Shown: positions 58,561 to 61,955 of the stretch, in pieces
Position numbering within the stretch: the stretch's first letter is position 1
Layout of the letters: every line of letters begins with the position of its first letter
From: Sphingomonas sp. A2-49
Lineage (GTDB): Bacteria; Pseudomonadota; Alphaproteobacteria; Sphingomonadales; Sphingomonadaceae
NCBI RefSeq assembly: GCF_025548555.1
Contig: NZ_JAJLPA010000001.1
Span: forward strand, 186,001-250,000
Length of the DNA: 64,000 bases
Direction of reading: 5' to 3'
Made by a program: the position numbers and the translations under genes
Notes under the pieces: generated by a model
The model's database searches: none
Told to the model about the DNA's origin: nothing
The model's input: only the letters and a program-made list of their open reading frames with translations

Positions 58561-59562
58561 TCAGCCGGCAGCGCGGAGTAGGTCTTCGAGGCTAGCGGCG
58601 GTCATGCCGAGCCGGGCGAGCAGGTCGAACATCCGATCCCACCATTGCCAGAAGCGCGACAGGTCGGCCGCGTCCCTGACATAGGGCGTGTGCCCGGGCA
58701 CCAGCGACGGCGAGTGGAACGAGAAGGCGAGCAGCCGCAGGTCCTCCTCCCCCACCGCGATCCGGACCGCCTCGAGCGCGTCGGCGATCGGCATGTCCTC
58801 GGGCGTCAGCGCGATGCGACGCAACAGGCCGCTGCGGGCGAGCAGGCCGGGCGTGCGCGGAACGCGCGCCGCCACGGGGTACAACGCCGATCCATGCCGC
58901 CGCAGCCGCCCTGCGAAAACCGTCGTCAGCGGAATTTCCAGCAGCCCGCCCGTGCGATAGGCGGCATTGCCGATCGCGGAGAAATCGGGACCGCCATCGG
59001 CGCGATAGTCGTAGCGGGCGCGGACCGACGTATCGATCCGGTAGCCGCGGTCGACCAACAGGTCGCGCGTCGCCGCCCCGATGCCGTAGCGTCCGGCGCG
59101 ATAGGCGACCGGCGTGCGTCCGAACGCCACGCGCAACAGGTCGGTCAGCGTGTCGAGCTTCGCGGCTTCCAGTCCGCGGGGCAGGTTGCCGGCGTAGCTG
59201 TCGCCCGGCGCCGCCGCGGCATAGGGCGGCGTTACCCACGGGTGCAGCTGTGCCCCCAGGGTCGAGCGGCCGTCGGCCAGCACCGCGCGCAGGATGTCGA
59301 CGGCCGCGGCGTCGCTCGCGACGGGATGATCGATCATGCAGGCAAGCCCGACGCCATGCGCCGCGAAGCGGGCGTGAGCGGAGGGCAAGGCGGCGATCGT
59401 CGACACCGAGCGGTGGCGCCGGTCGAGCGGCGCCGACCAGTCGAATTCCTCCTCCACGTCCATGAAGACGACGAAGCGGCGTCCGAACGATGCCGGCCAT
59501 CGCACGATGTCGCCGGACGGGGGCACGGGCATCCGATAGGGTTCGATGCCGTCGCGCCGCAC
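58561..59562 (-). CDS. Polysaccharide deacetylase-like protein (WalW type)
   Basis: A 333-residue protein with a NodB-like fold: FVVFMDVEEEFDWSAPL (about 30-46), HPVASDAAAVDIL, LGAQLHPWVTPPY and FGRTPVAYRAGRYGIG. The Asp-His-His metal triad is suggested by MDVEEEFDW, DHP and QLHPW. These proteins usually act on polysaccharides, but the substrate here is unknown; WalW-like proteins occur near exopolysaccharide loci. No signal peptide is visible. It ends two bases after the kinase-like gene's stop (59565). Confidence 0.75.
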   Translation of the reverse strand: MRRDGIEPYRMPVPPSGDIVRWPASFGRRFVVFMDVEEEFDWSAPLDRRHRSVSTIAALPSAHARFAAHGVGLACMIDHPVASDAAAVDILRAVLADGRSTLGAQLHPWVTPPYAAAAPGDSYAGNLPRGLEAAKLDTLTDLLRVAFGRTPVAYRAGRYGIGAATRDLLVDRGYRIDTSVRARYDYRADGGPDFSAIGNAAYRTGGLLEIPLTTVFAGRLRRHGSALYPVAARVPRTPGLLARSGLLRRIALTPEDMPIADALEAVRIAVGEEDLRLLAFSFHSPSLVPGHTPYVRDAADLSRFWQWWDRMFDLLARLGMTAASLEDLLRAAG

Positions 59563-59564
59563 GT

Positions 59565-61292
59565 TCAGTTGGTCGCCTGCCCCACCCTGTCATCTAGCGC
59601 GGCGGGCAGCCGCAGTGTCAAGAGATGCTCGCCGAACAGCAATTCCCCGCCCAGTTCGGCCGCGAGATTGCGTGCCAGCCGCAGCGCGAAGCCGGTGCCG
59701 AGCAGCGGCGCGCCCTCGGCATCGACGACGTCGCTGTCGATGCTCAGCAGCGCCTCCTCGCCCCCCGTACCGAGCGCGGACGGTCGTGCGAAGCACAAGG
59801 CGACCTGTCCGTCCGGCGCGGGCGCCTCGGCGATGTCGATCCGCTCGCCCGATGCCGCGGCGGCGGTCAGCGCCGCGAGCAGTCGCGACAGCAGGCGCTC
59901 CAGCGTGCGATCGTCGGTGAAGGCGGCGTGGTCCCCCATCGGGTGGATATCGAGCGCCGTGCCACGCAACGCGGCCAGCGGCGCGAGATCCTGCGCGATC
60001 CGTTCGAGCATCGGCTGGATGGCGACCGGTGTCGGGCGCAGGTCGAGCGCCTTGCCCTCGATCCGCGCCGCGGTGTCGAGATCATCGATCGCGCCGAGCA
60101 GCTTCAGTGCGGAATCGCGGATCGTCAGCGCGTGGTCGCGATAGACGGGCGCGACCGGGCCGAGCAGCTGCGCCTCGATCAGCTCGGCGAACCCGGCGAT
60201 CGCATTGGTCGGGGTGCGCAGTTCGTGGACGAGCTGGCGCAGCGAATCGGGCGCGACGCGGCCCGGCACCGGGGTCGCCTCCTCGTCGCTCCGCGGGCGG
60301 CGCGCGGTCGCGGCATAGCCGGTGAAGCGGCCGGTGGCCGGATCGAACTGCGGCGTGCCGGCGACCCGCCACGCCCCCGCGGCGTCGGACTGGCCGCCGA
60401 TGTCGAGCCGCGCACCCGCAAAGCGCTGCCGCTGGCGCAGCGCGCCGGTCATGACCGCGTCGACGCGGACCGCGCCCTGCGGTGCGCCGAGTGCCAGCGA
60501 TGCGCCGATCAGTGCGCCGCGCGATACGCCGTCGACCGCGCAGATCACGCCGCGGCTGTCCGTGTCGAACCGGAAGCTGCCGACCGGCTCGGCGGGCGTG
60601 CGGGCGGTCCGCGGCGCCGCGTCCGCCGGACCGCGCTGCCGCTGGAAGGCGTCGATACGCGCGACGAGGTCGGCGATCTGGAACCCGCCTTCGGCACCGG
60701 CGACGGGCTCGGGCGGCGCCTCGTCGGGGAAGACGCGCGGGGCGGGCATGTCGGCCGTCGCAAGCGGCGGCGGCGGCGCCATGAACGGGACGGGGCTTGC
60801 AGGAGCGGCCACGACGGGAGGCGCCGCATCGTTCGCCGCCAGCGGCGCATCCGCAACGGGTGCGTCGTAGGGCAGGACGAAATCGGACGGGCCGAAGCTC
60901 GCCAGTCCGCGCTCGACATCGGCCGGAAGGTCGCGTCGATGGCGCAGCACGGCGCGGCTTTCGGGCTTCAGGCGCGGCAGCAGCGCGGTCCATTCCGCCC
61001 CGGTCAGCCGCGCGGTGCGGAGCACCGGCGCGGACACGGCCAGATCGTCCTCGGCGAACAGCCCGACGAGCGCGGCGGGTGGGCTTGCGAAGGCGAGCGC
61101 GCGCGCGCTTGCGGCGCGCACCTCGACCGGCACCGCCTGGCGGAGCAGGCGCAGCCGCGCCAGCGAGGGTTCGTCGTCGCCGATCCGCCCGCGTCCCATC
61201 AGGTCGACGAGCTGACGCCAGGCCGACTGCGCGCCGAACCCGGAGTTCATGTCGGCCGACAGGACCGTCTTCAGGCTATCATCGAAACGCAC
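59565..61292 (-). CDS. Histidine-kinase-like protein with degenerate ATP-binding domain
   Basis: A 575-residue cytosolic protein. An Ala/Pro-rich region occupies about 1-240, a PAS-like segment follows (about 240-340; GVICAVDGVSRGALIGASLA), and then a kinase-like module with phosphoacceptor-type H356 in LVHELRTPTNAIAGFAEL. The expected N box is replaced by DDRTLERLLSRLLAAL without the conserved Asn residues, and no DxGxG G1 box is visible; only a G2-like GTGFALRLARNLAAELGG remains. It may be a pseudokinase or phosphotransfer protein (compare ChpT). GTG at 61292 lies five bases after TGGAG. Its partner is unknown. Confidence 0.8.
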   Translation of the reverse strand: MRFDDSLKTVLSADMNSGFGAQSAWRQLVDLMGRGRIGDDEPSLARLRLLRQAVPVEVRAASARALAFASPPAALVGLFAEDDLAVSAPVLRTARLTGAEWTALLPRLKPESRAVLRHRRDLPADVERGLASFGPSDFVLPYDAPVADAPLAANDAAPPVVAAPASPVPFMAPPPPLATADMPAPRVFPDEAPPEPVAGAEGGFQIADLVARIDAFQRQRGPADAAPRTARTPAEPVGSFRFDTDSRGVICAVDGVSRGALIGASLALGAPQGAVRVDAVMTGALRQRQRFAGARLDIGGQSDAAGAWRVAGTPQFDPATGRFTGYAATARRPRSDEEATPVPGRVAPDSLRQLVHELRTPTNAIAGFAELIEAQLLGPVAPVYRDHALTIRDSALKLLGAIDDLDTAARIEGKALDLRPTPVAIQPMLERIAQDLAPLAALRGTALDIHPMGDHAAFTDDRTLERLLSRLLAALTAAAASGERIDIAEAPAPDGQVALCFARPSALGTGGEEALLSIDSDVVDAEGAPLLGTGFALRLARNLAAELGGELLFGEHLLTLRLPAALDDRVGQATN

Positions 61293-61407
61293 GGTCACTC
61301 CAGGACAGCGCCCGCTACCGAAGCGGCGCGAGGATTCCTTACCGGTGGCGACTCCCGCGGGGAACAGGCGATTTCGGGACACATTCCCGATCGTCGCATT
61401 GTGGGAC

Positions 61408-61427
61408 AATTGCGTTGCACCGCAATT
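61408..61427. promoter_or_regulatory. Inverted repeat upstream of lrp
   Basis: AATTGCG (61408-61414) and CGCAATT (61421-61427) are perfect inverted half-sites with a six-base spacer, in the 195-base divergent gap. The location 60 bases before the Lrp gene suggests an autoregulatory operator. Confidence 0.45.
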
Positions 61428-61487
61428 TTCTTATGAGTAGGACGGAGGTGCCACGCTGAACGGCCTGTTTTCGGAGAGCTTTACGCA

Positions 61488-61955
61488 ATGTCTTTCGACC
61501 GGATCGACCGCCAGATCCTCGCCCACCTGCAGCAGGACGGCCGGATGACCAACGTCGAACTCGCCGAGCGGGTCGGCCTGACCGCGCCGCCGTGCCTGCG
61601 CCGCGTGCGCGCGCTGGAAGAGGCTGGCGTCATCCGCGGCTATCACGCCGATCTCGACGCCGCCAGCCTGGGCTTTCCGATCACCGTGTTCGCGATGGTT
61701 TCGTTGCGCAGCCAGGCCGAACACGATCTCGCCGCGTTCGAGGCGCATGTCGCCGGTATCGCCGAAATCCGCGAATGTCACATGCTGAACGGCGAGATCG
61801 ACTTCATCCTCAAGATCGTCGCCAGCGACCTCAAGAGCTTCCAGGAAATCCTGACGACGCATCTGACCCCCGCGCCGAACGTCGCGAGCGTCAAGACGTC
61901 GCTGACGATCCGGACTGCGAAGGCCACGTCCGGGATTCCGGTCACGATCGACTGA
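61488..61955 (+). CDS. Lrp/AsnC-family transcriptional regulator
   Basis: The 155-residue regulator has an N-terminal HTH (about 3-60; DRIDRQILAHLQQDGRMTNV, then ELAERVGLTAPPCLRRVRAL) and a C-terminal RAM ligand-binding domain (about 65-150). Such proteins bind amino acids and regulate their metabolism or transport. Its ligand is unknown. It is divergent from the kinase-like gene and has an inverted repeat in its promoter region. An upstream GGAGAG (near 61475) supports the start. Confidence 0.93.
   Translation: MSFDRIDRQILAHLQQDGRMTNVELAERVGLTAPPCLRRVRALEEAGVIRGYHADLDAASLGFPITVFAMVSLRSQAEHDLAAFEAHVAGIAEIRECHMLNGEIDFILKIVASDLKSFQEILTTHLTPAPNVASVKTSLTIRTAKATSGIPVTID

Follow-up and report, generated by a model that had tools for sequence, protein, structure and literature searches.

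A widespread histidine-kinase-like protein family of sphingomonads without ATP-binding boxes

In a 64,000-nucleotide stretch of DNA from Sphingomonas sp. A2-49 (NZ_JAJLPA010000001.1, positions 186,001 to 250,000; hereafter the window), a gene on the minus strand (59565..61292, stop codon included) starts with GTG and encodes a histidine-kinase-like protein of 575 amino acids that has lost its ATP boxes. The protein has a kinase-type fold and lies at a conserved locus, and the histidine box is present in nearly all relatives that keep the dimerization and histidine phosphotransfer (DHp) domain. By the sequences compared, this is a wide family and not a broken gene. The product would be a soluble protein derived from a histidine kinase, probably dimeric, that does not carry out the usual autophosphorylation. 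Most likely, at about an even chance, it is a kinase-dead node that handles phosphate supplied by other kinases, its histidine either relaying the group to a receiver or helping to strip it from one.

The ATP boxes in the window protein and its relatives

The presumed phosphoacceptor, H356 (codon 60225..60227, minus strand), sits in VHELRTPTNAI; the initial annotation of this DNA had correctly placed the histidine of the open reading frame (ORF; 61292..59565, minus strand) in a normal HELRTPTNAI box. It had also described a missing N-box Asn, an absent DxGxG motif and a surviving G2-like segment, all of which were found in the window protein. The N-box position reads TDDRTLERLLSRLLAALTAAA (that is, TDDRTLERLLSRLLAAL), with no Asn at either Asn position; within the former N-box LERLLSRLLAALTAA (59859..59903, minus strand) these two positions are R470 and A474. 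There is no DxGxG motif, and the G1 Asp column holds A. The G2-like GTGFALRLARNL is kept, and GTGFALRLAR (59670..59699, minus strand) contains the family-specific R538. A proper HATPase_c match with intact N and G1 boxes, the finding that the initial annotation thought would speak against its proposal, was not obtained, as Pfam HATPase_c did not match the window protein at E<1 or at E<10.

The four other kinases of the window (ntrB, chvG, cckA and a HisKA_2 kinase in the initial annotation), which we matched by position alone, keep the N-box and G1, as had been stated there: NLLKNA and DNGPG (L241), NLIDNA and DEGPG (L234), NLAVNA and DTGGG (L244), and NAIKYA and DHGVG in the HisKA_2 kinase (L261). 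The whole genome gave 37 HisKA matches, of which 30 were retrieved and 29 read with simple N-box and G1 patterns (L257 was left out). Among these 29 only the window protein (L248) fits neither pattern; the N-box pattern is absent from L230 and L232, and that for G1 from L245.

Residues were counted in 103 distinct C-termini, recruited with full-length profiles, and in 31 intact reference kinases. From 127 chosen loci, an intact kinase (L024, 121 bits) was moved by hand to the references and identical C-termini were collapsed, leaving the 103; the references are the non-family matches of the genome searches (L024, L027-L030, L102-L127). The phosphoacceptor His and the adjoining Glu are each present in 103/103. 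H+4, where the HExxT/N motif places its phosphatase residue, holds T in 99 sequences, with S in 3 and N in 1. At the first N-box Asn column R predominates (96, with H 5, N 1 and K 1). The second column holds T 67, A 23, S 5, V 4, L 3 and C 1, and never N (0/103), as compared with N in 31/31 of the intact references. The first G1 Gly has become Pro in 99/103, and the second is G in only 7/103. The G2 glycines are mostly retained (98 and 92 of 103), with A 49, S 36, T 10 and G 4 at the third. Arg occupies G2+6 in 102/103; the six commonest residues there in the intact kinases are P, A, H, T, N and S. Residues that are new and for the most part fixed have therefore taken the place of the ATP site. 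A recent pseudogene is ruled out by the conserved open frame and these family-specific residues, and the term pseudokinase, used in the initial annotation for one gene, is well supported as an old trait of the family.

In 44 diverse members, which make up the alignment of profile A2, Pfam HisKA matches 44/44, and 12 columns are invariant, including H356, E357, P361, A364, G367, Y384 and R538. Mean pairwise identity is highest in DHp helix 1 (0.69), followed by the DHp domain as a whole (0.57), the N-domain (0.41), the PAS region (0.35) and the CA-like domain, named for the catalytic and ATP-binding domain of kinases (0.30). The conservation of the DHp domain favours a working His and a receiver-docking face wherever that domain is present.

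Domain architecture, distribution and locus

All domains of the protein are encoded on the minus strand. The N-domain (residues 1-135, 60888..61292) consists of nine helices in a helical-repeat-like arrangement and is distantly related to the N-terminal part of DUF2336 proteins. A PAS-like domain (residues 239-331, 60300..60578) is recognized by its strand and helix pattern in the AlphaFold model. It is followed by the DHp (HisKA) domain (residues 348-412, 60057..60251), with two long helices in the model, and by the CA-like, formerly ATPase, domain (residues 421-564, 59601..60032), assigned by structural superposition on kinase CA domains. Pfam finds only HisKA (31.9 bits, cut-off 26.9, residues 351-412). 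It does not match a PAS domain in the window protein; an orthologue from another family of the order (L094, f4) has PAS matches under the Pfam cut-offs. The model of the whole protein, built from a 21-row alignment, places a linker of low confidence between the helical N-domain (about 1-135) and the PAS-like domain, followed by two DHp helices and the CA-like domain. Its mean predicted local distance difference test score (pLDDT) is 76.2 and its predicted template modelling score 0.34, so the arrangement of the domains is uncertain. Modelled by itself from a 40-row alignment, the N-domain again has nine helices, with a mean pLDDT of 88.6 over residues 1-144. Fold searches with it gave only a generic helical-repeat arrangement, with VIA Z never above 7.5 and nothing in Foldseek at E<=0.001. 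The CA-like domain superposes on kinase CA domains with VIA-align Z of about 16 (for example VanSA CA, Z 16.1, root-mean-square deviation 2.5 Å over 127 residues), and the best sequence relatives in the PDB include GacS, RetS and DivL. Hydropathy gave no peak that would suggest a membrane helix, the top 19-residue Kyte-Doolittle mean being 1.48, with no dedicated predictor run. Among 23 loci of the genus the start codon, at the homologous RFDDSL... position, is GTG or TTG in 20; it is CTG in L019 and CTT in L021, and L022 is a fragment at a contig end.

Protein searches found the orthologue, whole or in pieces, in 23/25 genomes of the genus and did not find it in G012 and G015, which are 85 and 83% complete. 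Across the order 192/242 sampled genomes match A2 at E<=1e-40; in f1, the family of the source genome, a hand count gave 150/159, and outside f1 this threshold may lack specificity. Named members include Sphingomonas hankookensis, S. kyeonggiensis, Sphingobium algorifonticola, Novosphingobium arvoryzae and Altererythrobacter xiamenensis. Two 2.1 Mb genomes (G223 and G263) retain the gene with only 7 and 8 HisKA matches, its own included. A search for a partner by way of these small genomes singled out none, as they keep 14 and 16 receiver matches. G203 lacks the gene and its sister G106 has it, and this pair, with G223 and G263, should be useful for finding partners. Several species of genus g26 (e.g. 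G217:C1:832900-834081) have one in-frame TGA within the profile match; the G217 ORF stops right after an LPAA motif, probably an earlier stop than that of the profile. The open-licence literature searched holds no name for the family in titles or abstract openings.

A profile of the N-domain alone (A3) matches only this gene in its own genome. Among 44 chosen genomes 32 match at E<=0.01, some of the matches being stand-alone DUF2336-type ORFs. From these 32 genomes 20 regions were picked by hand; matches that seemed to be DUF2336 proteins on their own were passed over, as were several genomes, among them G025, G026, G028, G029, G035, G036, G043, G051 and G059. In 20/20 regions the orthologue is adjoined, on the opposite strand, by an Lrp/AsnC homologue 63-72% identical to that of the window (61488..61955, plus strand, assigned by Pfam and NCBIfam), which is divergent and 195 bases from the kinase-like gene. 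The homologue is divergent upstream in 19 of the regions; in G261 it lies 744 bases downstream. Its presence beside the gene therefore marks 19, and probably all 20, of the regions as one syntenic locus, which occurs throughout the order.

The histidine: possible phosphotransfer, docking or decay

Since H356, E357 and the surrounding DHp helix 1 form the best conserved part of the kinase core, a phosphotransfer hub is plausible, as the initial annotation had proposed; the proposal has to be set against orthologues of sister families that lack a recognisable DHp domain at the same locus. In such a hub, signals would act through the N-domain and the PAS domain to determine the state of the DHp domain, and receiver domains would dock on DHp helix 1. 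H356 would take a phosphoryl group from one receiver and hand it to another; alternatively, with E357 and T360, it might help to remove the phosphoryl group. The CA-like domain would serve as a structural or docking module, with the conserved Arg within the emptied nucleotide site or close to it. An activity, whether of phosphotransferase or of phosphatase, is something we infer, as are the signal, the partner and the dimer. PhyT, found in the same order, is the working precedent for phosphotransfer, and DivL the one for a protein that only senses or binds.

Several observations weigh against a phosphoryl-carrying histidine in an ATP-less core. The 103-sequence sample is itself biased to members that keep the DHp domain, through recruitment with full-length profiles. 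Among the 20 regions recruited with the N-domain, 10 have no recognisable DHp domain: 6/6 of f5, one of f7, two of f2 (at most a faint C-terminal match) and G215 of f1. In a further f1 genome, G261 (L297:4504-6009), HRLRDP stands in place of HELRTP. Nine of the 159 f1 genomes have no A2 match, the gene being apparently absent; an N-domain search found nothing in eight of them and in the ninth only a 52-residue match (E 0.006). The G1 Asp is kept in 35/103, so that the ATP-box loss of the initial annotation holds for the window protein and is incomplete at this residue across the family. Traces of HATPase_c also appear at E<10, in 1/44 diverse members (21.3 bits, cut-off 26.4) and, faintly, in 2/21 genus members (best E 0.012).

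The DHp-less regions mean that the locus can work without the His. The kinase core is retained in 6/6 regions of f8 and 2/2 of f4, with L094 a third from f4. One of those from f8, in G037 (L299:3578-6033), is split into ORFs of 545 and 317 amino acids in different frames; it was counted as DHp-keeping because the DHp and CA domains, with HEFRTP, are found in the second ORF, and the split may be an assembly error or a real frameshift. The f1 genomes with weak matches present three states: DHp missing (G215), altered as above (G261) and an intact HELRTP (G252). As G215 and G261 both belong to f1, whose members as a rule have the DHp domain, this domain has been changed or lost more than once. 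Given this variation of the kinase core, the conserved unit across the 20 regions is the N-domain, with PAS in most. The His box is strongly kept in f1, f4 and f8 and expendable elsewhere, and the one locus offers a series from an ATP-less core to no core.

The main rival, a serious possibility short of an even chance, is that the protein is a scaffold or sensor pseudokinase, whose DHp and CA-like domains transfer no phosphate and only bind another kinase or a receiver in its phosphorylated form, the N-domain and PAS carrying the main function. The survival of N-domain and PAS after the DHp domain in f5, f7 and f2 at the same locus fits this, as does the presence of DivL among the structural neighbours (4q20, Z 16.2, root-mean-square deviation 7.8 over 208 residues). 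The passages of PMC4211667 on DivL describe catalytic domains repurposed as a sensor of a phosphorylated receiver, DivK~P, without kinase or phosphatase activity. DivL, however, has exchanged its His for Tyr, whereas here His and Glu are invariant in the 103 sequences, and DHp helix 1 is conserved more than any other stretch, beyond what docking alone would be expected to need. It is improbable that the kinase core is a vanishing remnant with no present role and that function resides in the N-domain and PAS: its loss at different stages across the order would fit, but where present the DHp domain is better conserved than either the N-domain or PAS, and the new residues R470, P504 and R538 are nearly fixed. 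Unusual ATP binding with persisting autophosphorylation, for which the CA fold, the partly kept G2 box, the G1 Asp in 35 sequences and the faint HATPase_c matches in two genus members might speak, is very improbable in view of the absence of the second N-box Asn from all 103, the Pro at the first G1 Gly in 99 and a single, sub-cut-off HATPase_c match among the 44.

The preferred reading, a histidine that passes on or removes phosphoryl groups, has its closest parallel in PhyT (formerly PhyP) of Sphingomonas melonis Fr1, a kinase whose ATPase domain is degenerate and whose His, in the passages of PMC5898713 that treat it, carries phosphate from SdrG to PhyR. Both proteins derive from kinases and share a conserved His together with a degenerate ATPase part, and PhyT is described there as a phosphotransferase (PMC5898713). 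Unlike PhyT, which has a HisKA_2-type HRxxN motif and a membrane anchor with a periplasmic sensor, the window protein has HELRTP and HisKA only and shows no hydropathy peak. PhyT is encoded at the phyR locus; the immediate neighbours of the window gene are an Lrp/AsnC gene and a deacetylase-like gene. The genome encodes a separate PhyT-like protein (L260, G000:C22:19774-19998; HisKA_2, 544 amino acids, HHRVKNN, ATPase part degraded by eye). Identity with PhyT is ruled out by the HELRTP motif, the missing membrane-helix peak and the separate L260.

Spo0B and ChpT are cited together in the same source as precedents, being dimeric phosphotransferases from degenerated kinases (PMC5898713, in the passage concerned). 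Identity with ChpT was rejected, as PF10090 has no match in the window protein and the ChpT of the genome is L128 (111 bits); a second, weak match to PF10090 (L129, 24.3 bits, cut-off 22.9) also has a weak HisKA match. ChpT and Spo0B are not known to have such an N-domain or PAS. With L260 and L128 present, several ATP-less kinase derivatives coexist in this genome.

DivL of Caulobacter resembles the window protein as a PAS-DHp-CA pseudokinase. The best match in the genome to its DHp fragment is L230 (79.6 bits, YELRTP), the window gene ranking 12th of 15; this rank and the retained His rule out identity with DivL. L230 (G000:C1:414795-414986) is itself DivL-like, with Tyr for His, no match to the N-box or G2 pattern and a G1-like DDGLG that is kept. 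By the tests run, then, the family is none of ChpT, PhyT and DivL, candidates for all three lying elsewhere in the genome.

There is some likeness to DivJ/PdhS-class kinases. The best NCBIfam match of the window protein is DivJ (42.2 bits), although this is far under the equivalog cut-off of 1000 bits and the ATP boxes are missing; at E<=1e-5, DivJ matches 41/44 members, PhoR 41/44 and PdhS 38/44. RetS of Pseudomonas is a neighbour in both sequence and fold (52 bits to the A1 profile). It is a hybrid kinase of another lineage and acts on another kinase through its DHp domain.

Neighbouring genes, possible origin and meaning

The downstream gene (58561..59562, minus strand) starts 2 bases past the stop of the kinase-like gene, and a same-strand homologue directly follows in 32/40 loci, that of the window included. 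It appears polysaccharide-deacetylase-like by eye, with WalW as a candidate name; Pfam, NCBIfam and PDB-sequence searches found nothing for it, nor did Pfam for four of its homologues. Among the 20 regions recruited with the N-domain it was found at E<=1e-8 only in G252. A motif search found a motif-bearing Lrp ORF on the opposite strand in 34/40 loci. An antisense open frame of 603 codons (59625-61436, plus strand) was taken as a GC-rich shadow ORF.

As to origin, A3 also matches ORFs of about 370-420 amino acids, two of which are Pfam DUF2336 (PF10098; 241 and 218 bits). PF10098 does not match the window protein; against its first 50 positions the f5 orthologues gave only sub-cut-off matches (L276, E 4.6e-4; L284, E 1.2e-3; L271, E 0.28). 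In several genomes of the order and the class, DUF2336-like ORFs lie within a few kb of kinase matches and may form two-gene modules. Such pairs, by coordinates, are G040:C27:96078 and 98196, G028:C1:2801785 and 2799451, G034:C2:496754 and 498884, and G360:C2:211999 and 213711; at two of these sites the kinases (L029 and L107) retain all their ATP boxes. It is a guess that the family arose by fusion of such a DUF2336-type ORF and kinase pair. A search for an active ancestor at the same locus found no Lrp homologue beside the 31 intact-kinase loci, a weak negative since the flanks were only about 1.5 kb; the sole Lrp match in that flank set was L026, itself a family member. When only the DHp domains of the 31 kinases of the class and order were used as queries, the window protein was the top match among 29 proteins of its own genome for 14/31; once the CA domain was added, it did not appear in the top three shown for any query. 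The DHp-only comparison was not used for descent from DivJ or PleC, because the kinases had been recruited with the family's own sequence or profile, which makes it circular.

Spo0B, ChpT, PhyT and DivL are the few model cases through which phosphotransferases and pseudokinases of kinase descent are known. Tentatively, and with some doubt, the present family may add a third kind, found throughout the order, to the ATP-less histidine phosphotransfer proteins of sphingomonads, with ChpT and PhyT as the other two. It would descend from a DivJ/PdhS-class kinase and have a DUF2336-related helical domain and a PAS sensor that feed a phosphorelay, and its phosphotransfer core would have been discarded entirely in sister families. 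If this is true, the syntenic locus holds a natural series from pseudokinase to non-kinase. A family with intact-His, mutated-His and DHp-less stages would allow a direct test of the use to which a kinase core is put after ATP binding has been lost.
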